Below are positions 20,294 to 41,291 of a stretch of 64,000 nt of DNA, piece by piece. The stretch comes from Desulfatibacillum sp. (GTDB lineage: Bacteria; Desulfobacterota; Desulfobacteria; Desulfobacterales; Desulfatibacillaceae). Where the stretch lies: positions 1 to 64,000 of the forward strand of contig JAEINP010000012.1 of assembly GCA_016342355.1 (NCBI GenBank), written 5' to 3'. The translations under genes were made by a program, and so were the position numbers. The notes beneath the pieces were generated by a model. It ran no database searches, had not been told where the DNA came from, and saw only the letters and a program-made list of their open reading frames with translations. Every line of letters begins with the position of its first letter. The first letter of the stretch is position 1.

Positions 20294-21691
20294 TCACGAT
20301 TTTTTTGAGAAAACAGAAAGGAATATGGAAATCAGAGTCTTAAGGACCCATTGGCGGTAGGATTCAGAGGTTGGGTCCATGCCAAGGAGTCTGGCGGGAT
20401 ATTCCGGGGCGCCTGCAAAAGTGTATAAGACGGTGATCAGGGTATAAAGCCACATGCGCAAATCCCGATCAGGCGCGTCAACGGGGAGCAGGCTCAGGAC
20501 CATATCATAGATTTGGGGATGGAGCCTGGCCACATACGCAAATCCGTCCAGATCAACAAACTGCTCAGCATGGGCCATGTTGTGCATGAGTATGCCCAGG
20601 GCCTCTCTATGCTGAAAACAATATGTGAGGGTTCTGTCCAGATAGATAGTCAAGGCCTGAGGAAAGGGTCTCCCTTCCAAGCCAAAACCCCACATACGCG
20701 CCGCCTGTATGAATTCATTAAAAACATCTTCAGCAGCGGCTTCAAAAAGATCCGCCTTTGTGGGGAAATAGTGGCGGATCAGCGTATGGTCAAATTTCCC
20801 CTGTTTGCCGATCATGCGGATGCTTGCCGTGTCGTAGGGGTTTTGGGAAAAAACATGTCTTGCCGCCTCCAGTATCATGGACCGGGCGGCTTCTCTTTTA
20901 TTCGCCTTTTGGGACCGCTCCAACTCCATGGCTTCCGTTTTCCACAAATACACCCTGTCAAACATGGAGTCTTTTTTGGAACACTCCTTAATCAGCGAGG
21001 AAACAGGAGGGGGATTTCCTTTGGCGATTGCCTCCATGGCAGGCATGAAAAGAAATTCAAACATGTCGCCCGTCCACTGTCTGTATTCGGGACTTTCATG
21101 GGGAAGACCCAGCGCTTTGGCGTGAAACTCGGAGGCGCCCACAAAATTGGCTATGCAGAGAATATAGACAAAGAAAAACATGTCGTCCGAACCTTGAAAT
21201 GAAACTCCGAACACGTCTTTACTCAGCAGGTTCAAAATCTTGCGGCGTATTTCAGCCATGCGGCCTAGCCCCGGCAATGCAATTTTCAGGTTACTCGTTT
21301 CTCCCACATTGAGCATAATCGCCTTGAATGCATCCGGGCGCCGGAAGCTGTACTCCAGCATGAGTCTGAGGAAAAGCATAAAGCTCTCCCCGGGGCCACG
21401 GCCTTCAATGACCTGGACCAGGTGCGGAAGATTGGAGAGGACCTCCGCTTCCAAATCCTGTGCAATTCTTTCAAACAGGGATGTTTTCGACCCAAAATAG
21501 TGGATGATGAGGGGATGCTTCACTCCCGCAGCGTCTCCGATCATCCTGAGGCTGGCGCTTTGAAACGGATGGCGGACAAAAACGCTGCGCGCCGCTTCCA
21601 GAATTCTCTGGCGGGTGGCTTCCTTTCTTGCCTCCCTCGAATTCTTGTAGCTCTCTGCCGGGGTCTCACTCTCTATGGCGGTTTTTTTCAT
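20294..21691 (-). CDS. Double TetR/AcrR-type regulator (two repressor units in one chain)
   Basis: This 465-residue protein is made of two complete TetR units. Unit 1 has its helix-turn-helix at about residues 25-70 (ILEAARSVF..SLRMIGDAAGVKHPLIIHYFGSK). Unit 2 starts near residue 265 with ILEAARHVF..SIRMIGKQGKFDHTLIRHYFPTK. Each is followed by a helical ligand domain. TetR proteins normally dimerise, so one chain may act as a built-in dimer with two different ligand pockets. It diverges from the alkylsuccinate synthase-type operon and is the obvious candidate regulator, which is an inference from position. Confidence 0.88.
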   Translation of the reverse strand: MKKTAIESETPAESYKNSREARKEATRQRILEAARSVFVRHPFQSASLRMIGDAAGVKHPLIIHYFGSKTSLFERIAQDLEAEVLSNLPHLVQVIEGRGPGESFMLFLRLMLEYSFRRPDAFKAIMLNVGETSNLKIALPGLGRMAEIRRKILNLLSKDVFGVSFQGSDDMFFFVYILCIANFVGASEFHAKALGLPHESPEYRQWTGDMFEFLFMPAMEAIAKGNPPPVSSLIKECSKKDSMFDRVYLWKTEAMELERSQKANKREAARSMILEAARHVFSQNPYDTASIRMIGKQGKFDHTLIRHYFPTKADLFEAAAEDVFNEFIQAARMWGFGLEGRPFPQALTIYLDRTLTYCFQHREALGILMHNMAHAEQFVDLDGFAYVARLHPQIYDMVLSLLPVDAPDRDLRMWLYTLITVLYTFAGAPEYPARLLGMDPTSESYRQWVLKTLISIFLSVFSKKS

Positions 21692-21870: not shown

Positions 21871-21945
21871 TCATTTACCGAGTGCAGAAATGTTCTTGAC
21901 ATGGCAATATTTGATTGGTATTTGTTCATTTACCGTATGTAGAAA
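21871..21945 (+). promoter_or_regulatory. Promoter of the glycyl-radical enzyme operon flanked by two repeats
   Basis: TTGACA (21896-21901) and TATTTG (21919-21924) are 17 bases apart. Direct repeats TCATTTACCGAGTGCAGAAA (21871-21890) and TCATTTACCGTATGTAGAAA (21926-21945) agree at 17 of 20 positions. One ends just before the -35 and the other covers the expected start site. This is a classic repressor layout. A third, weaker copy may lie near 21808-21820. Confidence 0.65.
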
Positions 21946-22029: not shown

Positions 22030-22194
22030 ATGGCTGAATGCAGAGAGTGCAAGAGCTTTTTTGTCAGTGAAGATTCTCCGGAAAAGGGGGATTGCATCCA
22101 AAGGGTGGTGGATCCCAGGCAGGCCTATTACCGGTCGGTGCCGGTGAATGCAGACAAAAGTGCGTCCCAATGCTTAAATTTCATAAAAAAATAA
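22030..22194 (+). CDS. assC: Small Fe-S subunit of fumarate-adding enzyme (BssC/AssC-like)
   Basis: This 54-residue protein has four cysteines (Cys4, Cys7, Cys22, Cys48). Gamma subunits of benzylsuccinate and alkylsuccinate synthases are of this size and bind one [4Fe-4S] cluster through four cysteines in a HiPIP-like fold. The gene order, small subunit directly before the large one, matches. AGGGAGG lies about nine bases before the ATG. It is followed 31 bases later by the catalytic subunit. The assignment rests on size, cysteine pattern and position. Confidence 0.75.
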   Translation: MAECRECKSFFVSEDSPEKGDCIQRVVDPRQAYYRSVPVNADKSASQCLNFIKK

Positions 22195-22225
22195 CCGCCG
22201 AAAGGCCTTGTAGGGAGGTTATGCT

Positions 22226-24739
22226 ATGACTGCTGAAGCAGCAAGAAATCTTGAGAGCGTTGAGGATCTGGAAAAAAAGCAGCAGTGGTGGTGGGTGGCT
22301 GAAAAAACGCGCTCGCGGCGACTGGATTATTTACGAAAGGCGATTTGGAAAAAGGGCGCCATCGGAGGACTTTACAATCCTGGTGTGAAAGTGGACCTGG
22401 AGTTCGGGCTGCTTGCCATGGAATCATGGAACGCCGCTCAGGTACTTGCGGATCCCAAGGTGATCCAGTTCGCCAAACATCTTGCCCATTACCTGGACAA
22501 TAAAACCATTTTTATAACCGATCACGCCCAGCTTGTGGGCTATGTGGGAAGCCTCCCCCATACGGTTTTTTGGGATCCCACCATGGGGGAAATGCTGAAT
22601 GAGGAGATTTATAACGATTCCACGGCGATCCCCGAGCCTGTCGAAGAAAGTATAAAAACTGTGGCCGAGTTATGCGATTTCTGGGCTGGCAAGACCATGC
22701 AGTCTGAAATCCTGCCGACATTTGATATTGAGGACATGATGAAGGTCATGTCCGGCGCCGTGGGATGGGGCCTTCCCATGTCAAGGACCGGTTATTCCGG
22801 CAAGGATTATGAATATCTCATGACCGGAAAACGCGCCTTCCAGGATATTTTGGATGAACTCAACCAAAAGATTGAGGAAGCGGACTACAGGATTCACAAC
22901 GAGACGCCCACTCCTGAAATACTCGACCTTTATGACAAAATTGATTGCTGGGAGGCCATGACCATCATGCTGGAGGCCGGCATGCGCCATGCGAAGCGCT
23001 ATGCAAGGCTGGCAAGAACATTGGCTGAACAGTTTGAGGCGGACTCAACCCGGAGAGAGGAATTGCTGTTAGTGGCCGAAACCTGCGAACAGGTTCCGGC
23101 CAAGCCCCCCAGGAGCCTCCAGGAATCCCTGCAGTACGACCTTTTCATACAGCTTTTTTCCAGGACTGAAGCAGTGGAAGGGGCTTGGCCAAGCAGGCCC
23201 GACTATTACCACGGACCTTATTATCAAAAAGACGTTAACGAAAAAAAACGCCTTACCGAGCAGGCAGCCATAGATCTTGTGGGCGAATTTTTAATACGCG
23301 CTGCGGAAGTGGGCCAGTACAAACCCCGGTGGACAAAGGAAGGTCTTCAGGGCATTGACGGCACATGGGTCTGGACATTGGGAGGCGTGAACAAGGACGG
23401 CTCGGACGCGTGCAACGACCTTACCATTGCATTTATGAAGGCGGCAAGACAGGTGCGGGTGGCAAACCCCACATTCGCGCTAAGGTGGCATCCTGAAGTA
23501 AGGGACGAGGTCATGCGCGAAGCATTTGAATGTATCCGTCACGGCCTTGGATATCCTTCCATACGCAACGACCCTGTTCTTATTGAAAACGCCATGTTCT
23601 GGCACGGACATCCTGTGGAGGAAGCCAGGACCTGGCTGCATCAGGCCTGCATGAGCCCGGCGCCCACCACCAAACATGGTTTCCAGCCAATGCGCATGGC
23701 CTCCGCTACGGCCAATTGCGCCAAAATAATCGAGTATGTTTTCACCCGGGGATTTGACAAGACCGTGAACATGCAAATGGGCGCACTGACGGACGATCCC
23801 AGAAAATTCATGGATTTTGAGGAGGTGAAAACCGCCTGGTCGGCTCAGATGGAGTCCATATTCGGTCTGCTGGTGCGGGTCGTTAATCGGGGAAGGGCCA
23901 CTGCTCCCAAAACATGCCCCCGCCCATATCTTTCGGCCATCTCAGAAAGATCGGTTGAGACCGGAATGGATGTATGCGATCCAAGCCTTTCCAGAGGCAA
24001 CGCCTGGATTACGGGTTTTACATGGGTGGAAAACGCGGACTCCCTGGCCGCCGTGAAAAAACTGGTGTTCGACGATAAAAAATACACCATGGACCAGCTC
24101 TGCGACGCCTTGGAGGCGGATTGGGAAGGCCATGAAGCCATGCGTCTTGATTTTGTCAACAATGCACCCAAATGGGGCAATGACGACGACTACGTTGACG
24201 ACATCATGGTCTGGTGTCTGCGGGACGTGGCCCGATTCTCCAAGGAGATGAAGTGTCCCAGCGGAAACAACTGGCCCCTGTTGCCCGAGAATGTCAGCGG
24301 CAACATCCACTATGCCAACATGGTGGGGGCGCTTCCCAACGGCCGCCGCCTGGGTGACGCCCTGTATGACGGAGGCATCTCTCCGGGGCCCGGGCTGGAC
24401 AAAAAGGGGCCCACGGCAGTCTTGAAATCCTGCGGAAAAATCAATCATGTGGAAGACGGCAGGGCCTTTTTGCTCAATCAGAGGCTGTCGCCTTCCCAAC
24501 TGGCGGGAGAAAAAGGCTTCACAATGTGGAAGGCTTATCTCAAGACATGGGCCGACCTTGGCCTGGATCATGTGCAGTTCAATATGGTCTCGGATGAAAC
24601 CTTGCGCGCGGCGCAAAGCGATCCGGAAAAATACCAGGAAGTCATCGTGAGAGTGGCCGGATACAGCGCTCATTTTGTGGATATTTCCCGAAAAACCCAG
24701 GACAACATTATCCAGAGAACCGTTCAGGGGATCGGATAG
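22226..24739 (+). CDS. assA: Alkylsuccinate synthase-type glycyl-radical enzyme, catalytic subunit
   Basis: This 837-residue enzyme adds a hydrocarbon carbon to fumarate by radical chemistry, the first step of anaerobic alkane (or alkylbenzene) degradation. The glycyl-radical site is near the C-terminus in RVAGYSAHFVDISRKTQDN (Gly812). The thiyl-radical cysteine is Cys475 in HQACMSPAP. The motifs SDACNDL and PKWGNDD are shared by the bss/ass clade and set it apart from pyruvate formate-lyase and diol dehydratases. Length fits AssA/MasD better than BssA, so alkanes are favoured, but the substrate is not proven. GGGAGG lies seven bases before the ATG at 22226. It needs a radical SAM activase, which is not nearby. 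Confidence 0.92.
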   Translation: MTAEAARNLESVEDLEKKQQWWWVAEKTRSRRLDYLRKAIWKKGAIGGLYNPGVKVDLEFGLLAMESWNAAQVLADPKVIQFAKHLAHYLDNKTIFITDHAQLVGYVGSLPHTVFWDPTMGEMLNEEIYNDSTAIPEPVEESIKTVAELCDFWAGKTMQSEILPTFDIEDMMKVMSGAVGWGLPMSRTGYSGKDYEYLMTGKRAFQDILDELNQKIEEADYRIHNETPTPEILDLYDKIDCWEAMTIMLEAGMRHAKRYARLARTLAEQFEADSTRREELLLVAETCEQVPAKPPRSLQESLQYDLFIQLFSRTEAVEGAWPSRPDYYHGPYYQKDVNEKKRLTEQAAIDLVGEFLIRAAEVGQYKPRWTKEGLQGIDGTWVWTLGGVNKDGSDACNDLTIAFMKAARQVRVANPTFALRWHPEVRDEVMREAFECIRHGLGYPSIRNDPVLIENAMFWHGHPVEEARTWLHQACMSPAPTTKHGFQPMRMASATANCAKIIEYVFTRGFDKTVNMQMGALTDDPRKFMDFEEVKTAWSAQMESIFGLLVRVVNRGRATAPKTCPRPYLSAISERSVETGMDVCDPSLSRGNAWITGFTWVENADSLAAVKKLVFDDKKYTMDQLCDALEADWEGHEAMRLDFVNNAPKWGNDDDYVDDIMVWCLRDVARFSKEMKCPSGNNWPLLPENVSGNIHYANMVGALPNGRRLGDALYDGGISPGPGLDKKGPTAVLKSCGKINHVEDGRAFLLNQRLSPSQLAGEKGFTMWKAYLKTWADLGLDHVQFNMVSDETLRAAQSDPEKYQEVIVRVAGYSAHFVDISRKTQDNIIQRTVQGIG

Positions 24740-24752
24740 GGGGAGGTGGGCC

Positions 24753-25103
24753 ATGTCAAGAAGGGATGAACTTCGCAAGGTGCAGGCAGGCAGGCTCAGC
24801 GCTCAACGAGCCCCCAAAGCGACGCAAGTAAAGGCTGAGAAGATTTGCGGCCTGTGCAGCAACTATTCCGAAGGAGCGTTTTCCGGAGAGGGGGCGGGTT
24901 CCTGCCGCATTTTAAAGGTGAAGTCCGACATTTCCGCTGATCCCCCCAAGTATGATCTGGAAAGTACGGATGGATACCAGACCATGAACCTTATGGACGC
25001 AGGCAAGTGCCAATATTACGAAAAAATGAGCTTCGTGGATAAGGACGGCACAGAGTGCAGCGATCCCCGCTACCGGAGATCCATGAGGCAAATGCAGGAC
25101 TGA
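24753..25103 (+). CDS. assB: Second small Cys-rich subunit (BssB/AssB-like)
   Basis: This 116-residue protein has a basic N-terminus and cysteines at 32, 35, 51 and 86 plus Cys102. CxxC..C..C is the pattern of the beta subunit of benzylsuccinate-type synthases, which holds a [4Fe-4S] cluster and regulates access to the active site. It lies 13 bases after the catalytic gene. The start at 24753 follows GGGGGAGG; the frame extends upstream only inside the previous gene. It is longer than typical BssB, mainly because of N- and C-terminal tails. Confidence 0.72.
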   Translation: MSRRDELRKVQAGRLSAQRAPKATQVKAEKICGLCSNYSEGAFSGEGAGSCRILKVKSDISADPPKYDLESTDGYQTMNLMDAGKCQYYEKMSFVDKDGTECSDPRYRRSMRQMQD

Positions 25104-25126
25104 GGCCAATCAGGGAGGTTAGTGCA

Positions 25127-25345
25127 ATGCAATGTATGGAATGTGGTTTTGAAGCGCCCATAAGCGGCTATCGTTATTTGTACAACGCACGAATAGATGC
25201 GTCCGTGGCCATGAGACAGTGTCCCGCCTGTCAGGCATGGCTTGCAGTGGATCAGCTTAACGAAAAGCCCTTGCAGGCTGTAGGGCCCGGCCAGGCCCCC
25301 TGGGGCAAATCCGCAGGCATAGAAAACCTTGCCGAGGACCGCTGA
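25127..25345 (+). CDS. Small two-CxxC protein, possible fourth subunit (MasB-like)
   Basis: This 72-residue protein has two CxxC pairs (Cys3/6 and Cys32/35), rubredoxin- or zinc-ribbon-like. GGGAGG lies eight bases before the ATG, and the gap to the previous gene is 23 bases, so it is clearly in the operon. A fourth small protein (MasB) is known in (1-methylalkyl)succinate synthase operons. Equivalence is inferred from size and position, not from a recognised sequence match. Confidence 0.6.
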   Translation: MQCMECGFEAPISGYRYLYNARIDASVAMRQCPACQAWLAVDQLNEKPLQAVGPGQAPWGKSAGIENLAEDR

Positions 25346-25746: not shown

Positions 25747-27081
25747 ATGAAAGATATCCAAAGAATTCTGGTGGTGGACGACGAACCGGGCATCCTGCAA
25801 AACGTATCCAAAATCCTCGCCCGGTCCGACTATGAGGTCTTCCAGGCGTCCAGCGCCAAGGAGGCCCTGGATGAGATGGCCAAGCGGTCTTTCTCCCTGA
25901 TGATTTCGGACATTGTCATGCCTGAAATGAATGGCCTGGAGCTTCTCAAGTTGGTCAAGAACCAATGGCCGTTGACCCAGGTGCTCATGATGACGGCGTA
26001 CGCTTCCACGGAAACCGCTGTGAAGGCAATCCGCCTGGGTGCCCTGGATTATCTTCCCAAGCCCTTTACACCGGATGAGCTTCGGACCCTGGTGGACCGT
26101 TCCGTGTCCGGGGATTTGGCGGAAGCCCAGGTGGGAGAGGTGGAGCGGGACGATATTGACGCCATGCATTTGAACCTGCCCATGGACAACCTGATGGAAG
26201 CGGACGTGGGAGAGGGTTTTTGCGAAACAGGCTTGAAGGTGTGCGACGTGTTCCAGAAACTGGGCCATACCTGCAAGGCTGGCGAGAAAAAAGGCATATG
26301 CCCCCAGGAAGCCAAAAAGGCGAAAGGCGGTGACGAGGCTTCGGCCATTCAGGAATTGATCGGCGTGGACATGCCTTTCAATTACGAGGAGGTGGTGGAG
26401 GCCACAGGCCCGGAATACGTGGCCAATCTGGGGAGGGACGGTGTTGCCTTCCTGCCTTACGAAGAGTTGAAAGCCAGCGCCGCACGCATGGAAGCCCGGC
26501 TGCGCCGGTCCAGGCTGGCGGCCATGTACAAAAGGAAGGAAAGTCATATCCCGGGGACCACGGACGCGTTGTCCGAGGTGGCGGACGCTCTGGGGACGGA
26601 ATATGTCAAGCATCTGGATCGGGACGGATTTTCGCGCGTTCCCTATGAAGAACTGAAGCGTAATGTAGCGCACATGGAGGCGAGGTTGCACGGGAAGGAA
26701 ATGGATTTGGCTTTGGCCTCGGACATCCTGGTGGTGGACGACGAAGTGGCTGTCAATAACAACATACGGAAGATACTCAAGAAGGGGCAATATTCGGTGG
26801 ATCAGGCCACCACAAGGGAAGAGGCCCTGGAAAAGGTCTCCAAGGGATTTTACCGGGTCATTATCCTGGACCTGAAAATGCCGGGTGTGGTGGGTCTGGA
26901 GCTTTTGGAGGCGGTGCACACCATGCAGCCCCAGGCGAAAATTATCATCGTCACAGGCTACGCCAGCATTGAAACGGCTGTGGAAACCTCGCGCCTGGGG
27001 GCTATGCTGTACGTTCCCAAGCCGTTCACACCGGCGGAAATGCGCACAGCAGTGGAAAAGGCCTCTCGTCTGGCCGCGTAA
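25747..27081 (+). CDS. Response regulator with two receiver domains and a repeated middle section
   Basis: This 444-residue protein has no DNA-binding or enzymatic output domain. Receiver 1 (residues 5-120) has Asp11/12, phospho-Asp55, Lys105. Receiver 2 (325-444) has Asp331/332, Asp375, Lys425. Between them lie four cysteines (159, 166, 176, 185) and two copies of a module around ATGPEYVANLGRDG..PYEELK (about 213-252) and ALGTEYVKHLDRDG..PYEELK (about 275-314). The cysteines could bind metal or sense redox state. AAGGAGGG precedes the ATG. It is followed by a terminator and then the NuoF/HdrA genes. It may be a phosphorelay protein that acts by protein contact. Confidence 0.85.
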   Translation: MKDIQRILVVDDEPGILQNVSKILARSDYEVFQASSAKEALDEMAKRSFSLMISDIVMPEMNGLELLKLVKNQWPLTQVLMMTAYASTETAVKAIRLGALDYLPKPFTPDELRTLVDRSVSGDLAEAQVGEVERDDIDAMHLNLPMDNLMEADVGEGFCETGLKVCDVFQKLGHTCKAGEKKGICPQEAKKAKGGDEASAIQELIGVDMPFNYEEVVEATGPEYVANLGRDGVAFLPYEELKASAARMEARLRRSRLAAMYKRKESHIPGTTDALSEVADALGTEYVKHLDRDGFSRVPYEELKRNVAHMEARLHGKEMDLALASDILVVDDEVAVNNNIRKILKKGQYSVDQATTREEALEKVSKGFYRVIILDLKMPGVVGLELLEAVHTMQPQAKIIIVTGYASIETAVETSRLGAMLYVPKPFTPAEMRTAVEKASRLAA

Positions 27082-29185: not shown

Positions 29186-32100
29186 ATGATAACATTTAAG
29201 TTAAACGGCAAAAAGGTCCAGGGGGAAGACGGACAAACAGTTCTGCAGGTTGCCGAAAAATACGGGGTGGATATCCCTACACTGTGCCACCATAAGGCGT
29301 TGACTCCCGCCGGGATGTGCCGCATGTGTACGGTGGAAATGTTTGACGGCAGAAGGACCAAGTTCGTCACGGCATGCAACTATCCCATTTGGGAAGGCAT
29401 GGAGATTTTCACGGACACGGAAACGGTCCATGAAGGCCGCAAGCTCATCGTGGAAATGCTGCTGGCTCGGAGCACCACGGTTCCTGCGATCCAGACCCTG
29501 GCCAAAAAATACGGCCTCGAAAAATCCCGCTTCGGCGCCGACGACAATACCTGCATCCTGTGCGGTCTGTGCGTGCGCGTGTGCGAAAAGATGGGAAACA
29601 GCGCCATCACCCTCACGGGCCGGGGCCTGGAAATGAAGGTGGACACCCCCTTCAGCGTCCAGTCCGACGTGTGCCGGGGATGCGGCGCCTGCGAGTTCAT
29701 TTGTCCCACGGGCCACATTAAGCTGGAAAATATTTCCAAGGGCGAGATCAAACTCATCCCTTCGGAATACGAATTGGGCTTGGCGGGCCGCAAGCCCGTG
29801 TATGTGCCCTACGCCCAGGCGGTGCCCAATACCCCGGCCATTGATCGGCGGTACTGCATGCATTTCAAGACCGGCGGGTGCCAGATTTGTACGGAAGTCT
29901 GCGGTGTGAACGCCATTGACCACACCATGCAGGACGAGATTGTGGAACTGGAGGTGGGCTCCATTGTCTTGGCGCCCGGCGCCAAGGTGTACGATCCTTC
30001 CGCGCACGATACCTTTGGGTACACGACCAATCCCAACGTGCTCACCAGCCTGGAGTTCGAACGTATCCTGTCCGCATCCGGCCCCTTTGGCGGTCATCTG
30101 GTGCGGCCCTCGGACCATTTGGAACCCAAGAAAATCGCCTGGATCCAATGCGTGGGCTCCCGGGACGAGCATCTGGACAACAAGGGCTATTGCTCGGGCG
30201 TGTGCTGCACCTACGCGGTCAAGGAAGCCATGCTGGCCAAGGATCACTGCCCCGAAGGCCCTGACGGCCTGGACGCGGCCATTTTCTATATTGATATCCG
30301 GACCAACGGCAAGGACTTTGAACGGTTTTACAACCGGGCCAAGGACGGCGGCGTGCGCTTTGTCAAATCCAAAGTGACCACGGTGGACCACAATGACGAC
30401 ACCGGCATGGAAGTCCTGCGCTATGTGGACCCGTCCGGCAAGCTCATGGAAGAGGAATTCGACATAGTGGTTCTCTCCGTGGGTTTTGAAATCGCCGAAG
30501 AAACCAAGGAAATGGCTAAAAAGTTGGGTCTGGAAGTGGACAAGAGCGGATTCGCCGTGTCCAGCAGCTTTAAGCCGGTGGAAACTTCCAGGCCGGGCGT
30601 GTTTGTTTGCGGGTCTTTTGCCGCACCCAAGGACATTCCCACCTCGGTCATCGATTCTTCCGCCGCCGCCGGTGTAACGGGCAGCCTGCTGTTCGACTCC
30701 CGCTTTACCCTGACCAAGACTGCGGTAATTCCGCCGGAAAAAGCCACCAAGGGCGATCCCCCCCGGATTGGTGTGTTCCTTTGCTGCTGCGGCAGCAACA
30801 TTGCCGGGGTCGTGGAAATGCCCAAGCTGGAGGAATTCGCCAAGACCCTGCCCAACGTGGCCTATGTGGAAACCAATATGTATTCCTGTTCCCAGGATAC
30901 CCAGGAGAAAATGTCCGACGTAATCCGGGAAAAGGGACTCAACAGGGTGGTGGTGGCGGCGTGTACGCCCAAGACCCACGAGCCACTGTTTCAGGAAACC
31001 CTTATTGCAGCCAGCCTGAACAAGTATCTCTTTGAAATGGCCAATGTTCGCAACCATTGCTCCTGGGTCCATAAGAATACTCCGGACAAGGCGACTCTCA
31101 AGGCCATGGACCTGGTGCGTATGTCTGTCCAAAAGGTCGCCCTGGCCCAACCCCTCACCGAGCCCCGACTCAGTATTGTGGAAAAGGCCCTGGTGATCGG
31201 CGGGGGCGTGGCGGGTATGGAAGCCGCCAAAACCCTGGCAAGCCAGGGGTATGAAACCCATGTTTTGGAACGCACCGCCGAGTTGGGCGGTCAGGCCCGC
31301 GCCCTGCATAAAACGTGGAGGGGCGAGGATGTTCAAGGGTATTTGAAGGATCTTATCAGCGAGGTTCAGAACCACGAAAAGATTACGGTTCACTTGGAAT
31401 CGGAAATCACGGACGTGGAAGGCTTTGTGGGGGATTTTAAGACCACCTTCAAGACCGGCGACCAGTCCACCACATACGGTCACGGAGTGACCATTTTTGC
31501 CTGCGGGGCTTCGGAATATAAGCCCAAGGAATACCTTTACGGCCAGGACCCAAAGGTTATCACAAACCTGGAATTGGAACGGAAACTGGTGGAAGGGGAT
31601 TCCGCCCTCAAGAGCAACGGCGCGGCTGTTTTCATCCAGTGCGTGGGTTCGCGCATTCCCCAACGGCCCTACTGCTCCAAACTGTGCTGCACCCAATCCA
31701 TCAAAAACGCCCTGGCTCTTAAAGAGGCCAATCCCAAAAAACCGGTTTTCGTGCTGTATAGGGATATGAGGCCTTATGGCCTGAGGGAAAACCTGTACCG
31801 GGAAGCCCGGAAAAAAGGCGTGACCTTCATCCGTTATAACGACGACAAACCCTTGGAGGTAACGGGCGGGGAAAAGGGTCTGGCAGTCGCCTTCACCGAC
31901 TATGTGCTTGGCAAGAAAATGCAGGTCAGCCCCGAGCTGCTGGTTTTGGCCGCCGCTATCATCCCGGAAGAAAGAAATCCCCTGGCTCAGGCGTACAAAG
32001 TCTCTCAGAACCAGGATGGCTTTTTCGCCGAGGCTCACGTCAAGTTGCGTCCCAACGATTTCGCCACGGACGGTGTGTTCCTGTGCGGCCTGGCCCACGG

Positions 32101-32416
32101 ACCCAAGCCCCTGGACGAGTCCATCGCCCAGGCCCAGGCTGCGGCGGCAAGGGCGGTGACGCTCCTTTCCCGGAAAGAGATTTCCGTGGCTGGAACGGTC
32201 GCCAGCGTGGACGGGGCGGCATGCAGCGCGTGTAAGGTGTGTGTTTCCTTGTGTCCTTACTCCGCGCCCATGATCAACGAAAAGACGGGCAAGGCGGAAA
32301 TCCAGTCCACCTTATGCAAGGGTTGCGGATTGTGCGTGGCTTCCTGCCGGAGCGGCGCCATTCATCTGGCGGGATTTGATACGTCCCAGATATTCAGCAT
32401 GATCGACGCTTTTTAA
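29186..32416 (+). CDS. NuoG-type ferredoxin fused to two HdrA-like units
   Basis: This is a 1076-residue electron-transfer protein. Residues 1-180 resemble the NuoG N-terminus: [2Fe-2S] Cys34, 45, 48, 64 and two [4Fe-4S] sites (Cys123-133, 163-173). The His-ligated NuoG cluster is missing. Residues 220-530 resemble HdrA after its flavin Rossmann motif (extra cysteines 224, 232, 235, 239). Residues 540-1000 are a full HdrA with FAD motif GGGVAGMEAA near 670. Two ferredoxin clusters close the chain (CSACKVCVSLCP, CKGCGLCVASC). Together with the NuoF-like protein it may link NADH, ferredoxin and a disulfide or quinone-side acceptor, perhaps by flavin-based bifurcation, which is inference. Confidence 0.88.
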   Translation: MITFKLNGKKVQGEDGQTVLQVAEKYGVDIPTLCHHKALTPAGMCRMCTVEMFDGRRTKFVTACNYPIWEGMEIFTDTETVHEGRKLIVEMLLARSTTVPAIQTLAKKYGLEKSRFGADDNTCILCGLCVRVCEKMGNSAITLTGRGLEMKVDTPFSVQSDVCRGCGACEFICPTGHIKLENISKGEIKLIPSEYELGLAGRKPVYVPYAQAVPNTPAIDRRYCMHFKTGGCQICTEVCGVNAIDHTMQDEIVELEVGSIVLAPGAKVYDPSAHDTFGYTTNPNVLTSLEFERILSASGPFGGHLVRPSDHLEPKKIAWIQCVGSRDEHLDNKGYCSGVCCTYAVKEAMLAKDHCPEGPDGLDAAIFYIDIRTNGKDFERFYNRAKDGGVRFVKSKVTTVDHNDDTGMEVLRYVDPSGKLMEEEFDIVVLSVGFEIAEETKEMAKKLGLEVDKSGFAVSSSFKPVETSRPGVFVCGSFAAPKDIPTSVIDSSAAAGVTGSLLFDSRFTLTKTAVIPPEKATKGDPPRIGVFLCCCGSNIAGVVEMPKLEEFAKTLPNVAYVETNMYSCSQDTQEKMSDVIREKGLNRVVVAACTPKTHEPLFQETLIAASLNKYLFEMANVRNHCSWVHKNTPDKATLKAMDLVRMSVQKVALAQPLTEPRLSIVEKALVIGGGVAGMEAAKTLASQGYETHVLERTAELGGQARALHKTWRGEDVQGYLKDLISEVQNHEKITVHLESEITDVEGFVGDFKTTFKTGDQSTTYGHGVTIFACGASEYKPKEYLYGQDPKVITNLELERKLVEGDSALKSNGAAVFIQCVGSRIPQRPYCSKLCCTQSIKNALALKEANPKKPVFVLYRDMRPYGLRENLYREARKKGVTFIRYNDDKPLEVTGGEKGLAVAFTDYVLGKKMQVSPELLVLAAAIIPEERNPLAQAYKVSQNQDGFFAEAHVKLRPNDFATDGVFLCGLAHGPKPLDESIAQAQAAAARAVTLLSRKEISVAGTVASVDGAACSACKVCVSLCPYSAPMINEKTGKAEIQSTLCKGCGLCVASCRSGAIHLAGFDTSQIFSMIDAF

Positions 32417-32440
32417 CAAAGCGTTTTCATAAGTTGTTCA

Positions 32441-32477
32441 AAAGGGGGAATTCCACATCCGGGATTCCCCTTTTTTT
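32441..32477 (+). terminator. Intrinsic terminator after the HdrA fusion
   Basis: AAAGGGGGAAT and ATTCCCC with a short loop form an imperfect stem, followed by seven T. Confidence 0.8.
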
Positions 32478-32506
32478 GTATAGTGGATTAGCTGAAATCA
32501 AGGGGT

Positions 32507-33154
32507 TTAGCAGATGGTGGAGAACAGAGCTGTGAGGTCTTGGGCATGGCTGGTGAGGAAATCCAGGTAATCCAGTTCCAGGGAGATCATGGCGGTTTCT
32601 CTGTTTCGCAGCCATTCGGAAAGCCACGCTAAGCGGATGAGCAGGGCAAGAGGAAAAAAATGCTCCCAGCTTTCCCGCTTGAACAGGCCGCTCCGCCACA
32701 GGCGTGTGAGAAAGGCCCCTACATAATCACCTGAAATTCCGGGAGGATATTCAAATCCCGCGCAGCCGACCATGAGGGCCGCGTCGTACATTTCCGGTCG
32801 GATTCCGCAGAACTCCCAATCAATGACCGCCTTCAGGCAATCTTCTCCCCAAATAATGTTTGCAGGATGAAAATCTCCATGGCAAAAACCGGCGGGAAGA
32901 CCTTCCAGGACGGGCAGGAACGGCTCCGCAATGGCCAGGGCCGGAGATACCCTCTCCAATACTTCAGGATCACGTTTTTCTATGGTTTTTATCAGATTTC
33001 GGATGAAATCTTCCAGAGAAAAATGCCCCCGGGTTGCCCGGGTGACTCCGTCGACTTGCGCCGCCTGCCTGAGCCTGATTAAAAAATCGGCCATGGCCGC
33101 GCCGCGCCAGGCATGGTTCAGGTATTGGGGCCTGGGGTGTTTCACCACCCGGAC
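32507..33154 (-). pseudogene. C-lobe half of the split APH-type phosphotransferase gene
   Basis: From 33154 down, the frame encodes VRVVKHPRPQYLNHAWRG and then the catalytic core FCHGDFHPANIIW and the metal-binding VIDWEFCG of aminoglycoside-phosphotransferase-like kinases, 215 codons in all. Upstream codons to 33268 are intron sequence and not part of the protein. The matching N-lobe is at 14683-14995 on the other strand. Both catalytic motifs are intact, so the break seems recent. The original substrate is unknown. Confidence 0.85.
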
Positions 33155-33260
33155 AGACCCCGCCTCGCGCCGACGCCCTTGCCGTCCAGCTAACAGTTCC
33201 CCTTGTCGGGCCTGCATAGGACTTGCACCTCCAAGCGAATGCACCCTGCCAGGCGCAACA
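33154..33260 (-). mobile_element. Group II intron remnant, 5' end
   Basis: Reading the minus strand, GTTGCGCCTGGCAGGGTGC, then GGAGGTGCAAGTCC, CTGTTAGCTGGACGGCAAGG and GAGGCGGGGTCTG match the conserved 5' domain I of bacterial group II introns. The text breaks off exactly where the plus-strand fragment at 14996 resumes (AAGGAAGCC). The exact first base is uncertain. Confidence 0.8.
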
Positions 33261-33319
33261 AACAACAACGGCTGGGCAATATCTGCCCCGCCGCCTTGGT
33301 TTAAAATATTTTCAGAACT

Positions 33320-34156
33320 CTACTTACCAAATGGGAAGCCCCGCTTCCAACTGAATTTCAACACAGCATTGTACAAAACCGGGGACAGCCTGTGCAAGAG
33401 GTACTGGGGCCAAGCATGGAGGGGGGAAGGCATGATGCCAATATCCCGCCGCAAGGCGCGAAGCCCGTCCCTTGCCACCAGGTCGGGCGATACCCCCTTG
33501 GTGGCGTAGAATTTCACCACATCCCCGGATCTGCTGGCGCCCTTGTCGTCCCTGAGGTCAATCTTGCCGTTTTTCACGATATTGGTGTTGATGAAGCCGG
33601 GACACAGGGCGCTCACCCCAATGTTATGAGCCCCCAATTCAGCCCGCAATGACTCGGATAGCCCCATGAGGGCGTATTTGCTGGTGCAATAGGGCGACAT
33701 GCCCGGCAAGGGCGAAAACCCCGCAATGCTGGAGGTAATGAGGATGCCGCCCCCTTGCTGGCGTTCAATCATTTTGGGAACAAAATGATGCAGCATGTAA
33801 ATGACTCCCCACAGATTGACGCCCAGCACCCATTCCCAGTCTTCCAGGGAAATGCGCTCCAGGGGCGCGCCGTGCCCTACCCCTGCGTTCAGACACAGGA
33901 TGTCCGGGCACCCGTGTTCGCTGATGAATTGGTCTGCGAATTTGCCCGCTGCTTCCTTGTTGCCATGGTCCACGCCCAGGCCCCAGGCTTCAGCACCCAA
34001 TGCCCGAACCTCTCCGGCCACCTGACCGGCCCTGTCCTCATGGATGTCCGTGACCGCCACACTGGCGCCGGCCCTGGCCAGCCCCATGGACAAAGACCTG
34101 CCTATGCCGGAGCCTCCGCCTGTTACGATTGCCAGTTTATTCTTGAATGTTTTCAT
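33320..34156 (-). CDS. Short-chain dehydrogenase/reductase
   Basis: This 278-residue NAD(P)-dependent oxidoreductase has TGGGSGIG (cofactor binding), NAGVG, and the Ser..Tyr-x3-Lys catalytic set (SSIAG..YCTSK). The C-terminal 60 residues are longer than the core fold and may bind a bulky acyl substrate. It starts three bases after the ThDP-enzyme gene ends, so the two are co-transcribed. The product of the ThDP enzyme, such as a 2-hydroxy ketone or aldehyde, could be its substrate, which is inference. Confidence 0.88.
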   Translation of the reverse strand: MKTFKNKLAIVTGGGSGIGRSLSMGLARAGASVAVTDIHEDRAGQVAGEVRALGAEAWGLGVDHGNKEAAGKFADQFISEHGCPDILCLNAGVGHGAPLERISLEDWEWVLGVNLWGVIYMLHHFVPKMIERQQGGGILITSSIAGFSPLPGMSPYCTSKYALMGLSESLRAELGAHNIGVSALCPGFINTNIVKNGKIDLRDDKGASRSGDVVKFYATKGVSPDLVARDGLRALRRDIGIMPSPLHAWPQYLLHRLSPVLYNAVLKFSWKRGFPFGK

Positions 34157-34159
34157 GGC

Positions 34160-35827
34160 TTATTCCATTTTCAGGGATTCGGAAAAAAGCAGGGTTGCCG
34201 GACTGGTAACGCAGGGGTCGGTCAGGGCGTTGACGCAGGCGGGCTTGCCGGATTCCAAAGCGCGGTGCACAGCGGGGATGATATCCTCGTCCTTTTCCAC
34301 AAATTCCCCGTGTCCACCCAGGGCTGCCGCTACTTGTTCGTAATGGACCACTCCCAGTTCGGAGCCGATCAACCGCTCATTGCCGTAGCAAATTTCCTGG
34401 CCGTGCTTGATCATGCCCCATGCCTGATCATTGTTCACCACGCAAAGAAACGGGAGATCATGGCGTTTGGCCGTATCAAACTCCATGGCGTTAAAACCGA
34501 AGGAGCCGTCCCCGTTAAACACCACCACCTGTTTGTCCGGGCAGGCCGCCTTGGCGCCCAGGGCAAAGGGCAGGCCCGTGCCCAAACACCCCAGAAGTCC
34601 GCCCGAGGCAGCCAGCACATTGGCGCGTTGGGTGGCCTTGAATGCGGTCAGGCCGAAATAGGCGGTATCCCCGCCGTCCATGATGTAAATGGCGTCGTCC
34701 CCCACTGCCTGCCTTACTTGATGGGCCAGCCTTGCCGGATGAATGGGATCGGAGGGGGTTTTCCTGGCTTCGTCCTCTGCCGCGTCCAGGGGGAGGTAGG
34801 AATCTTTCAGGTCTGCAACCCACTGGGACCGGTCAGCTTTTTCAATGAGGGGCAGAAGGGCCTTGAGGGTCATTTCCATGTCCCCGGCCAGACCCACGTC
34901 GCAGGACCGGTTGCGGCTTAGCTCGGAAGTGTCGATATCCGCACGAATCACACAGGCCTGGGGAAAGCCTTCCCCGAACATGAGCAGCCAATTAAAGCGG
35001 ATGCCCAGGGCAATGATCAGGTCGGCCTGGGGCATTCCAGCCAAAAGTCCCATCTGGCCGCCGTCCCACATGGACAGAGGGTGTAGGTCGCTCACCGCGC
35101 CCCGGCCATTGTTCGCCAGGCAAAAGGGGATATGGGCCTTTTCCAACAATTCCGACAAAAGCGCGCCTGCCCGATCCGTGGCGATTCCCGAGCCAGCCAT
35201 GAGCATAGGCCTTTGGGCCTGATTGATCATCTGGGCGGCCCGGGCCACACTGGCGGGGTCCGGCCCGGCCATGTGGGTCATACCGCCCTTGGACGCCGGG
35301 CGAATTTCATTTTCAGGGGCGCTGACGTTCAGAACATCCGGGGGAAGCTCCAGAAAAACCGGCCCCGGACGCCCGGAAACCGCATGGCGGAAAGCCGTGG
35401 AAATATACTCCGGCACACGGCGCACATCATGACAGGTGGCAGCCCACTTCACAAAGGGCTTGACCATGGCCGCCTGCTCGATTTCCTGGAGCGCTCCCTT
35501 TTGCCAGTCCCTCACGGCCGTGGCCCCGGAAATAAGCACCAGGGGCGCGTTTTCCATGGCCGCGTTCACCAGCCCCGTAAGGGTATTGGTAAAACCCGGA
35601 CCCGCGGTTGCGATACACACTCCGGGCTTGCCCGTGAATATGGACCACGCATGGGCGGCCATGGCCGCCGCCTGCTCATGGCGCACGTCTATAAGCCGGA
35701 CCCCGTACTCCAGAAATCCATCGTAAATCCGGTCTATGTGACCGCCTGACAGGGAAAAGACCGTGTCTATCCCTTCTGTTTCCTTCAGGTGCTTCGCCAC
35801 CAGATGTCCGCCGTAAATACCTTGCAT
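34160..35827 (-). CDS. Thiamine-diphosphate enzyme, acetolactate synthase-like
   Basis: This 555-residue protein has the three ThDP-family domains: Pyr (catalytic Glu51 in RHEQ), central, and PP domain with GDGSFGFNAMEF..VVNND metal/ThDP motif. It is related to acetolactate synthase, oxalyl-CoA decarboxylase and 2-hydroxyacyl-CoA lyase. No regulatory small subunit gene is beside it, which argues against classical branched-chain amino acid synthesis. AAAGGAG precedes the ATG. Operon with the SDR and opposite a TetR gene suggest an inducible catabolic role. Confidence 0.85.
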   Translation of the reverse strand: MQGIYGGHLVAKHLKETEGIDTVFSLSGGHIDRIYDGFLEYGVRLIDVRHEQAAAMAAHAWSIFTGKPGVCIATAGPGFTNTLTGLVNAAMENAPLVLISGATAVRDWQKGALQEIEQAAMVKPFVKWAATCHDVRRVPEYISTAFRHAVSGRPGPVFLELPPDVLNVSAPENEIRPASKGGMTHMAGPDPASVARAAQMINQAQRPMLMAGSGIATDRAGALLSELLEKAHIPFCLANNGRGAVSDLHPLSMWDGGQMGLLAGMPQADLIIALGIRFNWLLMFGEGFPQACVIRADIDTSELSRNRSCDVGLAGDMEMTLKALLPLIEKADRSQWVADLKDSYLPLDAAEDEARKTPSDPIHPARLAHQVRQAVGDDAIYIMDGGDTAYFGLTAFKATQRANVLAASGGLLGCLGTGLPFALGAKAACPDKQVVVFNGDGSFGFNAMEFDTAKRHDLPFLCVVNNDQAWGMIKHGQEICYGNERLIGSELGVVHYEQVAAALGGHGEFVEKDEDIIPAVHRALESGKPACVNALTDPCVTSPATLLFSESLKME

Positions 35828-36917: not shown

Positions 36918-39900
36918 TCATGATGGACTGGTGAATTCCGGAGGGTTTTGGGGCAGGTGGATGATGAACCGGGCGCCTTTCCCGGATTTTGATTCCACGG
37001 TCATGGATCCTCCATGGTCCTCGGCGATAATGAAGTAGGAAACGGAAAGCCCCAGGCCTGTGCCTGTCCCCACGCTTTTTGTTGTAAAAAACGGCTCGAA
37101 AACCCTTTTGCGCGTTTTTTCGTCCATGCCAGGGCCATTGTCTTCCACCTCAATGCGCACCCTTTGGTTTTCCTGGGCGGTGCGCAGTGTGATGGCGGGG
37201 TTTTCGCAGGTGTTTTCACCCTCGGCCATGGCATGGGCTGCGTTGCGTAAAAGGTTCAGCAGGACTTGTTGAATTTTGCTTATCTGGCACCATACATGGG
37301 GGTTGGCGGGATCATATTCCCGAATGATCTGAATCTGTTTGAAGTCAAATCTCTTTTTCAGGTCATAGTCGCTGGAGGCCAGTTCCAGGGTGTTTTCCAT
37401 GATGTCGTTGATGGAATGGGAACTGCCGTCCGTCTCGCTTTTTCGGCTGAAGCTCAGCATGTTCGCCACAATTTTTCCCGCCCGGACACCTGAGCTATGT
37501 ATGGAATCTAACATACGGATCAGGCCCCGTTTTTCCATGTATCTGTGAATGGCCTCCATGGAGGCGCCGCATTCCTCAGCCACAGCCTGGTTTTTTTCCG
37601 TCATTTCCACGGTTCTGTTTTTCAAAACCTGGGCGTTTTGGATAATCCCGGCCAGGGGGTTGTTGATCTCGTGAGCCATGCCAGCGGCAAGCCCTCCCAC
37701 GGAAAGCATTTTTTCTGACTGGATCATCATTTCTTCAATACGGACCCTGTCTGTCACGTCATCCATTCGGATGACCGCACCCTGGATGCCGTTGGCTATG
37801 AGGGGAAAAACCGTCACATCCGCAAAATGCACCTCTCCGTCCACCTGGGAGGGAATGCGCGCTTCGGTTTTGGGGGTGCGTTCTGCAATAGCCTCCCGGA
37901 CCTTTCCCATTTCCCGGGCCAACTGGGGAAAGACATCTGTCAAGGAGCGGCTTTGTGCCTGTTCCGCGCTGATGCCGGTGACCTTTTCCGCTTCCAGGTT
38001 CCATTGAGTGACCATTCCCTGAGGGTCCACGCCCACCAGGACCGAAGGCATGGAGTTGACGATATTGGACAGGAGGTTTCTAAGATGTTTCACCTCATCC
38101 TGGGCCTTTTCCTGCTCCCTCATATCGCTCAGCATAAGCAGAAGATGGTTTTTTTCCTCGATGGTGAAGGGAACCAGTTGGGCGTCCATGATCATTTCCT
38201 GCCCGTAAGTGGAAATCCCTTTCAGAGCGTGGCGCAAAGGCGTTTTGTCCTTGAAGACCCTCATGGCGACCTCATAAAGCCCCATTTGCTTCCAGGATTG
38301 GATTTGATGGAAATTCAGGGACAGGATTTGCTCCCGGGTTCCGCCCACCATGTCCGCAGCCGACTGGTTGGCGGTCATGCATTGCCCTCCAGGCTCGTAC
38401 AACAGGATGCCAACCGGCGATTCCGACACGATTTTCTCGGCAAAGGCCAGGGCGTTGGACAGTTTTTTCTCGTTGATTTTCTGCTCGGTAAGGTCCACGA
38501 TAATGCCCCGCATGCCAACGGGAACCCCGTTTTTCACAATGCGTGCAGAGTGGATCATGACCGGAAAGCGCGAGCCGTTCTTTTTAAGGGCTGTGTATTC
38601 CAGCCCTCCCAGGCTATGACCTTCCAGGACCTTGGCCATGTTGGCCAGAGCCCGTTCCTCGTCTCCGGGCTCCAGGGTATCCAGAGCTGAAACGCCCGCC
38701 TCAACCTCTTCCCTGGAATACCCAAAAATTTCGTAGGCGTTCTGATTCACAAAGGTCAGCGTTCCCACCGCGTCGGTTTCGAAAACTATCTGGGGGAGGG
38801 AGTCCGCCAGGGTGCGGAATCTTTCCTCACTGCCCCGCAGGGCCTGTTCGGTTTCCTTCTGTTGGGCGATTGTTTGTTCCAGGCTTCCAATAAGCGTCCT
38901 AAGCTGGCTGGTCATGCTGTTGAACGCATGGGCAAGGGCGCTGATTTCATCATCCCCTGTGATGGAAAGGCTGCGATCCAGGTCGCCCCGGGAGATAGCC
39001 ACGGCGTTTGCGCTCAACCTGTTGATGGCCCTCATGGGGCGCCTCAGGACCAGGAAGCTGAGGGTGGTGGTCACCAAAACGCCCAGCAGCACCAGCCCGA
39101 TCAGGTAATAGGTCATGAGTCTTAGGGAGGCGAAAGCCTCTTGGGTGGGCATTTCCACAACCACAGCCCATGGGGTGGCCGGGATGGACACATATTCCCC
39201 GATGACCGGTTTGGCATCCAACCCGTCGTATTCATGACTTAGATGTTCAGGATAGATATTATTCTGAATAAACTCAGCAACCGGGGGGAAATGGCTCAGG
39301 TCCCGGCCATGCTGCTCCAGCACCCTGGCGGGGTTTTGATGGGCCATGAGGCGTCCCGCGCCATCCACGATGTAGGCATAGCCGGTTTTGCCGATTTCAA
39401 CCTTGGCGATTGTTTTCCACAGCCGGGCCACATTGATGTCGGCGGTAAGGACACTGACAATCTTTCCATTACGGGAACTCAGGGGAATGGCAATGGGGAT
39501 GGATAGGCGTCCCCCATCCGCCTGGGAATAAAAGGGTCCGACAAAAACCTCCCCCCTTTTGACCGTGGCAAACATTTCTGTTCTTGAAAGGTCTCCCAAT
39601 TCTTTTGGCAGATAGGTATAAGACTCGGAAACCTTGACGATCTCCTTTCCTTCAGCATCCAGCAGGGCAAGTTCGCTGAATGCATTGGATCGGTTGATAA
39701 GCACATATTCCAGGGCCTGTTTTTGTTCTTGGGGTTCCTTGTCAATGAGAGAAACCAGGTCTGCATAAAAATACATGTTGGTAATGGCTGAATGGATGTG
39801 GTCGGAGACCAGCCTGGCGACCTCATTGGCATTTCGGATCTGAAAAGCCTGGATGAGGCGTTTTTGATTGTTTTGGGAAATGGATATAAGACCGACGCCC

Positions 39901-40010
39901 ATGGTGACCAGGGAGATAACCATGGAAAGAGTGACTGCCCATCCCAACTTTGTTCCAAACTTTCTGCGCCATGGTATGGAAGGGGTGAGTATTTGGCTGC
40001 GTGTTTTCAC
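36918..40010 (-). CDS. Membrane PAS-domain sensor histidine kinase
   Basis: This 1030-residue kinase has one N-terminal helix (about 25-47) and an extracytoplasmic Cache-like sensor (about 50-300). A second helix and HAMP domain follow, then about three PAS domains with FGYSREEV and similar signatures. A HisKA domain has the phospho-His in [10 protein letters not shown], followed by an HATPase domain (NAAHAM, DNGPGM, GTGLGLS). It starts with GTG. It follows a binding-protein gene by 15 bases, suggesting that protein presents a ligand to the sensor. No cognate response regulator is adjacent. Confidence 0.92.
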
Positions 40011-40025
40011 AAAGGAATCCGTTTT

Positions 40026-41291
40026 TCACCTTTCAAGGGGCGTTTTCCCGTTTGGGAGCGCATCCCCCTCCGCTGATTTCAGTCCAGCCCACTGCACCCG
40101 GGCCGATGAAAAGGGTTCGGGCCACACAGGAACCAGTTCCCCCTTTTGGATCTGCACCACCAATAAGGTGGTGTATTTATTTTGTCCGCTTTGGTCAAAG
40201 GCCAGCCGGTCGGAGGGCAGAATCATGTCCTTGCCAAAGGGAAGGTCTGTTTTGGACAAGGCCTCTCTCAAATGGTTTTTATCCAGGGTGGCGGCCCTCT
40301 CCAAAGCGTCTTTCAGCACATACACACACTGGTAAGCAAGAACTCCGTCTCCAGTCAGGTGCTTGCCATAGCGTTGGCGGAAAGTGCGGTACAGCTCTTT
40401 GCCGGCGGGAAAAAACCGGGAGTATTCTGAGACGCTGAAAAAGCCTTCCGCCGCTGGCCCCAATTCCTGAACAAACCGGGTTGAAATGACGCCTCCCGCC
40501 GTGTCTATCACAGGGACATTTGCCCCGGCCTTTTCCAGGGCCCTGGCGATAAGGATGCTGTCCTCAATATAGGTGGTTGTGATAATGGCGTCGGGCTTGG
40601 CGTTTAAAACCCTGGCAACCTCCTGGGACAGGTCTGTCGCGTCTTCAATGCGATAACTCTCCTCCCCCACCAGTTCCAATTCAGTGTGCATGATGGCCTG
40701 CTTTTGGGCCAGGGCCGCGGACGTGCCAAAGGCGGTGTTCTCATGCAACAGGGCGACTCGTTGTATAGGATACCCGGCCAGCCTCTCCAGGTCCAGCAGA
40801 AACCGTATCTGGTCCCGTCCGTAAAACTCGGCCTTGGAAATCAAACGAAAAGTATATTGGAAGCCCCTCTCCGTAATGATGTCGGCGATTCCCGAATTCA
40901 GAATAATGGGGGCGCCCAGCCTTTCCGTCACTTCGGTGACAGCGGTGGCCACGCTGCTTTGATACACTCCGATGATGGCGCACACGCCCTCTTCGTTGAT
41001 CAGCCTTTCCGCTTCTCTGACACCCTTGATAGAGTTGCCTTCGGTATCTCCGAAAACCAGCTCCAGCCTAGCACCGCCCAGGGACTGTATTCCGCCATTG
41101 GCGTTTATTTCCTCAGCCCCCAAAATAACGGCGTCCCGGTTCAGTATGCCTGTTTCGGACAGAGCTCCGGTTATGGGAAACAGCACCCCTACCCTCACGG
41201 TTTGAAGAGAGGGCGGTTGTCTGTCGCAGGAAGTGGTGAGGACAAGCGCCCCGCAAACAAATATCCTGCAAATTTTCAAAACAAAGCGCAT
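40026..41291 (-). CDS. Periplasmic branched-chain-amino-acid-type binding lipoprotein, copy 2
   Basis: This is a 421-residue protein of the Peripla_BP_6 (LivJ-like) family. A signal ending LTTSC (Cys22) suggests lipid anchoring. The start at 41291 gives the signal peptide and has GGAAAG nearby; an in-frame start 12 codons upstream does not. There is no permease or ATPase gene near. It sits directly before the PAS kinase and is a clear paralogue of the gene upstream (shared TVRVGVLFP, IQSLGGARLEL, VYQSSVA, ALLHENTAFGTSAALAQK). Ligand sensing rather than transport seems likely. Confidence 0.85.
   Translation of the reverse strand: MRFVLKICRIFVCGALVLTTSCDRQPPSLQTVRVGVLFPITGALSETGILNRDAVILGAEEINANGGIQSLGGARLELVFGDTEGNSIKGVREAERLINEEGVCAIIGVYQSSVATAVTEVTERLGAPIILNSGIADIITERGFQYTFRLISKAEFYGRDQIRFLLDLERLAGYPIQRVALLHENTAFGTSAALAQKQAIMHTELELVGEESYRIEDATDLSQEVARVLNAKPDAIITTTYIEDSILIARALEKAGANVPVIDTAGGVISTRFVQELGPAAEGFFSVSEYSRFFPAGKELYRTFRQRYGKHLTGDGVLAYQCVYVLKDALERAATLDKNHLREALSKTDLPFGKDMILPSDRLAFDQSGQNKYTTLLVVQIQKGELVPVWPEPFSSARVQWAGLKSAEGDALPNGKTPLER

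Follow-up and report, generated by a model that had tools for sequence, protein, structure and literature searches.

The DNA analysed here, referred to as the window, is a 64-kb stretch of contig C34 (113,030 bp) in a Desulfatibacillum genome (G000). A relative in the same genus, Desulfatibacillum alkenivorans, is an alkane-degrading sulfate reducer. At positions 22030–25345 the window carries four closely packed open reading frames in the same direction, preceded by a divergent regulator gene and, between the two, by a putative promoter region:

20294–21691, minus strand: fused double-TetR regulator, 465 aa, divergent from the operon (Pfam TetR_N found twice)
21874–21890, plus strand: putative operator site 1, TTTACCGAGTGCAGAAA (0 in 100 shuffles; conserved in 6 genomes)
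21896–21924, plus strand: putative sigma-70 promoter, TTGACA, 17 bp, TATTTG (TTGACA position kept in six genomes)
21929–21945, plus strand: putative operator site 2, TTTACCGTATGTAGAAA (55 bp from site 1; overlaps the expected transcription start)
22030–22194, plus strand: gamma subunit (MasC/AssC/BssC-type), 54 aa (PF08201 BssC_TutF, E 7e-17; MasC 9o8u_C, E 2e-8)
22226–24739, plus strand: catalytic alpha subunit (AssA/MasD), 837 aa (MasD 9o8u_A, 1254 bits; tree; active-site residues; purifying selection)
24753–25103, plus strand: beta subunit (MasB-type), 116 aa (MasB 9o8u_B, E 2e-20; Cys32/35/51/86 as in HxN1 MasB)
25127–25345, plus strand: delta subunit (MasE-type, rubredoxin-like), 72 aa (MasE 9o8u_D, E 1.5e-23; Cys3/6/32/35 as in HxN1 MasE)

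An earlier note on this DNA had described a small Fe-S subunit, a catalytic glycyl-radical subunit and two further small cysteine proteins in one tight operon. All four reading frames are present, and the two further cysteine proteins match MasB and MasE, the beta and delta subunits. The catalytic residues lie exactly where they had been placed, Gly812 within RVAGYSAHF and Cys475 within HQACMSP. That note covered the operon only and stands for this part; the double-TetR regulator (20294–21691) and the paired sites (at 21874 and 21929) are additions to it. Directly 3′ of the operon, positions 25747–27081 encode a response regulator that has two receiver domains and lacks any recognised output domain.

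The alpha subunit consists of a PFL-like and a Gly_radical domain. Among solved structures, MasD of strain HxN1 (9o8u_A) is by far its best match with 1254 bits, against 468 bits for the alpha subunit of BSS and at most 341 for other glycyl radical enzymes (GREs). The HxN1 enzyme, the (1-methylalkyl)succinate synthase (MASS) MasBCDE (PDB 9o8u, PMC12358834), resembles the predicted window enzyme in its four subunits, its metal ligands, its catalytic cysteine and glycine, and its fumarate-binding Arg/Tyr/Thr/Glu. The iron ligands of the HxN1 subunits are Cys 32/35/51/86 in MasB and Cys 3/6/32/35 in MasE (PMC12358834), and cysteines are read at identical positions in the window beta and delta sequences. 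The fumarate site of HxN1 (Arg492, Tyr194, Thr598 and Glu690) corresponds to Arg490, Tyr190, Thr596 and Glu688 in the window alpha subunit; these residues, together with Cys475, Gly812, Phe598 and Trp181, are the equivalents of the HxN1 active-site residues. With one-to-one matches to the four MASS subunits and the ligands kept, the sequence comparison confirms the operon as a predicted complete enzyme gene set, encoding all four subunits (gamma, alpha, beta and delta) of the (1-methylalkyl)succinate synthase type. It differs from the HxN1 cluster in that the latter includes the activase gene masG, while the window operon has none, and HxN1 MasD belongs to another AssA/MasD lineage. Comparison of the window alpha subunit with its orthologue in a relative (G005) gives a dN of 0.17 and a dS near 2.5; the window alpha subunit is under strong purifying selection.

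The alkane pocket of HxN1 MASS extends towards Phe192 (PMC12358834). The equivalent position holds Thr188 in the window alpha subunit, Gly, Ser or Thr across its clade, mostly Gly in the sister lineages, and mostly Tyr or Phe in the lineage of D. alkenivorans and HxN1. As a lead only, the alkane pocket of the window enzyme could be larger or differently shaped. A role for residue 192 as a determinant of chain length is a weak lead, since the residue is Tyr in the D. alkenivorans lineage and Phe in HxN1.

The phylogeny of the catalytic subunit was computed from 103 relatives plus five structural references, with TutD (BSS) representing the aryl-type X-succinate synthases in place of NmsA and HbsA; the genome-contig scan covered the best 80 matches, and rarer lineages are under-sampled. 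The tree shows no grouping with dehydratases or decarboxylases, the outcome the earlier note had named as contrary to its assignment. Instead, the window alpha subunit falls within the X-succinate synthases (SH-aLRT 100) and, inside AssA/MasD, within a 28-member AssA lineage (SH-aLRT 100) that excludes HxN1 MasD as well as AssA1 and AssA2 of D. alkenivorans. Nine sequences of the family Desulfatibacillaceae form one clade in this lineage. A genome search for other assA copies, which the earlier note had suggested, found two, in tandem on contig C88, with 70% and 67% identity to the window copy; in the tree they are one-to-one orthologues of D. alkenivorans AssA1 and AssA2. The window operon is thus the third alkylsuccinate synthase (ASS) gene set of this genome and represents a separate AssA lineage. 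A separate tree divides the nine family sequences in two: the standalone copies (window, G005 C15, G006 C36 and L044), grouped with moderate support (87/77), and the copies standing in tandem behind the main cluster, grouped with support of 97/98.

The two D. alkenivorans loci (NZ_FQZU01000001 and NZ_FQZU01000012; L060 and L073) share enzyme class and genus with the window operon, but both have activases, one with ActA and the other with ActA and ActB (defined below). D. alkenivorans itself contains no counterpart of the window copy and no exact match to the 17-bp site described next. Sister ass operons, such as those of Smithella SCADC (L057, L047 and L053), share the AssA lineage and the gene order masC-D-B-E with the window; unlike the window operon, they are immediately preceded by an activase gene and followed by MoxR and VWA genes.

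Between regulator and operon, two copies of the asymmetric 17-bp sequence TTTACCGNNYGTAGAAA bracket the putative TTGACA promoter. The exact pattern, in which one further position may be C or T, has two hits in the window and none in 100 shuffles; its only exact occurrences in the genome are those at 21874 and 21929. The pair is kept in six genomes (G000, G003, G005, G006, G007 and G008) at a start-to-start distance of 55–56 bp, and in all six TTGACA lies 22–24 bp after the start of site 1. Across 291 genomes belonging to the order, a stricter paired pattern gave hits in 4, always at this locus and in Desulfatibacillaceae, with no match for the reversed control; G003 and G007 are absent from these matches because one site deviates in each. 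We regard the sites at 21874–21945 as a putative operator pair of the double-TetR regulator, and the TTGACA/TATTTG elements as a putative promoter of the operon. A regulon joining the window operon with the activases on C88 was considered and rejected at exact-match stringency: with exact sites only at 21874 and 21929, the regulator does not obviously control ActA and ActB.

In each of G005, G006, G007 and G008, the same paired sites adjoin an orthologue of the regulator (41–45% identity). In G005, G006 and G008 the gene is divergently upstream of the standalone copy, and in G003 it would fall beyond the contig end. In G007 (L195, C185) what follows the regulator gene and the paired sites is an acyl-CoA ligase gene rather than masC, and a related CoA ligase gene is found 3′ of the standalone masD-masB in G005 (L147) and G008 (L155); these contexts suggest a co-regulated pathway. 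Most of the relatives are draft genomes or MAGs, with the standalone loci of G003 and G006 on short contigs and that of G008 split between contigs.

The AlphaFold2 model of the regulator chain has a mean pLDDT of 81 and a pTM of 0.80. A Foldseek search of the PDB gave Mce3R (9b7y) as the sole match with an E-value under 0.001 (E 5e-6, 449 columns); at 14% identity, a TM score of 0.48–0.55 and an rmsd of 8, this is a fold-level match. Mce3R of Mycobacterium tuberculosis is described as an unusual double TFR whose two binding sites are asymmetric, 25 bp long and 53 bp apart (PMC11667970). The modelled regulator resembles it in fold and layout: both have two TetR units per chain, two asymmetric sites about 50 bp apart and a position divergent from the target operon. 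The sites themselves differ in sequence and in length, 25 bp in Mce3R against 17 bp here. The two recognition-helix regions of the regulator differ from each other, each being fairly conserved, and the 17-bp site is not palindromic, as expected if each half of the protein reads one half-site. Further double-TetR proteins or tandem TetR matches occur in this genome (C20, C98 and C82) and in G001 (C34), and the fused regulators seem to make up a small family within the genus; upstream of the genes on C20 and in G001, no evident site pair was seen. Our searches of the open-access literature found nothing usable on fused or tandem TetR proteins, and no paper on regulation of anaerobic alkane use by such a paired-site, double-TetR promoter.

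The earlier note had pointed out that the radical SAM activase is missing from the operon and from the entire window. This absence is borne out and extends to the whole contig C34, on which neither TIGR02494, nor phmmer searches with two ass activases, nor a scan for the CxxxCxxC motif found an activase. An activase in the same cluster is usual, if not strictly defining, for MASS and ASS. Among the matches listed, there are 26 ass loci at which the catalytic gene is flanked on each side by 9 kb or more; 8 of these, spread over six genomes, lack an activase within 10 kb, which indicates that an activase-free locus is not rare. In at least two other genera of Desulfatibacillaceae there are standalone copies that share this promoter architecture and likewise have no activase. 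Sister lineages outside this family carry an activase in cis, in the order activase-masC-D-B-E; this order implies that one activase was lost in the window lineage before the genera of the family diverged. The standalone locus of G005 also lacks masE, so the delta subunit may be shared as well in that genome. The combination seems to be new: an isoenzyme that stands alone and forms a separate lineage, has no activase beside it in several genera, and is equipped with a dedicated tandem-TetR promoter.

A search of the genome for activase homologues, as the earlier note had advised, identified six TIGR02494 members above the cut-off. Two of these are AssD-type activases on contig C88:

C88:31414–32376: ActA, AssD-type activase (331 bits; TIGR02494 cut-off 174)
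C88:30467–31408: ActB, AssD-type activase (305 bits; TIGR02494 cut-off 174)

Both contain radical SAM and ferredoxin domains and adjoin each other and the two other assA copies; both are also found at the main cluster of G005. The radical domain of the window alpha subunit (residues 700–837) is 89–91% identical to those of the C88 copies, compared with 62–66% for the remainder of the protein. We know of no ASS for which cross-activation has been demonstrated. Among X-succinate synthases, the activase IbsAE works in vitro on BSS, which is not its native partner; the same paper cautions that a GRE activase as a rule acts with high specificity on its own enzyme, and that cross-reactivity of this kind is atypical among GREs (PMC10239695). 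Together, the identity of the radical domains and the action of IbsAE on BSS support cross-activation, and installation of the Gly812 radical in trans is the best reading for the window enzyme. ActA of Desulfatibacillaceae is placed with the activases belonging to the other AssA lineage, although deep support for this is weak; the window enzyme may therefore rely on an activase with which it did not co-evolve. In the proteobacterial-type ass clusters, ActB is always accompanied by a second, divergent rubredoxin-like delta protein encoded just before ActA (for example L012, on C88 of this genome); among the matches listed, this protein is present in 9 of 9 clusters with ActB and in none of about 22 with ActA alone.

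The earlier note had left a choice between an activase shared from elsewhere and one left behind by rearrangement. Sharing fits the two AssD-type activases on C88, while rearrangement fits only as an old event. A recent loss, with the operon as a decaying remnant, would accord with the activase-first gene order of the sisters, from which the window lineage has departed by losing the gene, but it is very unlikely given the strong purifying selection and the activase-free standalone copies, with the same regulator and sites, in other genera; decay as such was rejected on dN/dS and conservation, with the catalytic and metal-ligand residues intact. Still less probable is an activase gene that lies physically near and is missing from the assembly. 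The draft assembly has 142 contigs, and the window begins at the end of one, but the operon sits 22 kb inside a 113-kb contig with no gaps noted, which makes an activase just past the break unlikely, and the standalone copy of G005 is equally without an activase in the surrounding 60 kb of a 221-kb contig.

Activation by one of the other four activases of the genome, on contigs C33, C22, C35 or C127, is improbable, if less so than either of these. In its favour, the genome encodes eleven GREs against six TIGR02494 activases, and some sharing across families seems to occur. However, those four activases adjoin other GREs and fall outside the ActA and ActB clades, and in this genome, as in relatives, ass genes are linked to ActA and ActB alone. 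GREs on C46, C4 and C31 (L014, L016 and L017) are likewise without an activase within the stretches read; with the surplus of GREs over activases, this suggests that activase sharing may be common in this genome.

Our preferred reading, to which we assign a probability of about 0.8, is that the operon encodes a complete and functional third alkylsuccinate synthase isoenzyme, activated in trans on Gly812 by ActA and/or ActB and expressed from a separate transcription unit under double-TetR control. The regulator would bind the two asymmetric sites and hold the promoter off, with the second site covering the expected transcription start, until a hydrocarbon-derived ligand releases the repression. 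Once the alpha, beta, gamma and delta subunits had been made from their separate transcription unit, the radical would be placed on Gly812 by ActA and/or ActB, which the main ass cluster on C88 encodes. The activated enzyme is predicted to add n-alkanes or similar hydrocarbons to fumarate. A family-wide extension is more tentative, and we rate it slightly below even odds: one locus with ActA and ActB would serve several ASS isoenzymes, a standalone isoenzyme of separate lineage would be switched alone by a tandem-TetR sensor acting on a paired asymmetric operator, and ActB would be paired with a second rubredoxin-like protein of its own.

If activation in trans is correct, ASS isoenzymes share one pair of activases, transcription would decide which enzyme is made, and the partners of an activase may include alpha subunits from a different AssA lineage. 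Such cross-activation would be of use: high specificity is the general expectation for GRE activases, and among those of X-succinate synthases few are soluble. Surveys that demand an activase beside assA would then miss real ass operons. The double-TetR, paired-site promoter may also provide a handle on the regulation of anaerobic alkane use.

A further arrangement of GRE genes was observed on contig C33, where a pair (32022–34343 and 38058–40397; L013) is accompanied by one activase, as it is in D. alkenivorans (L158). GREs of this type form a clade outside the X-succinate synthases, and a homologue is encoded directly downstream of AssA in L092.
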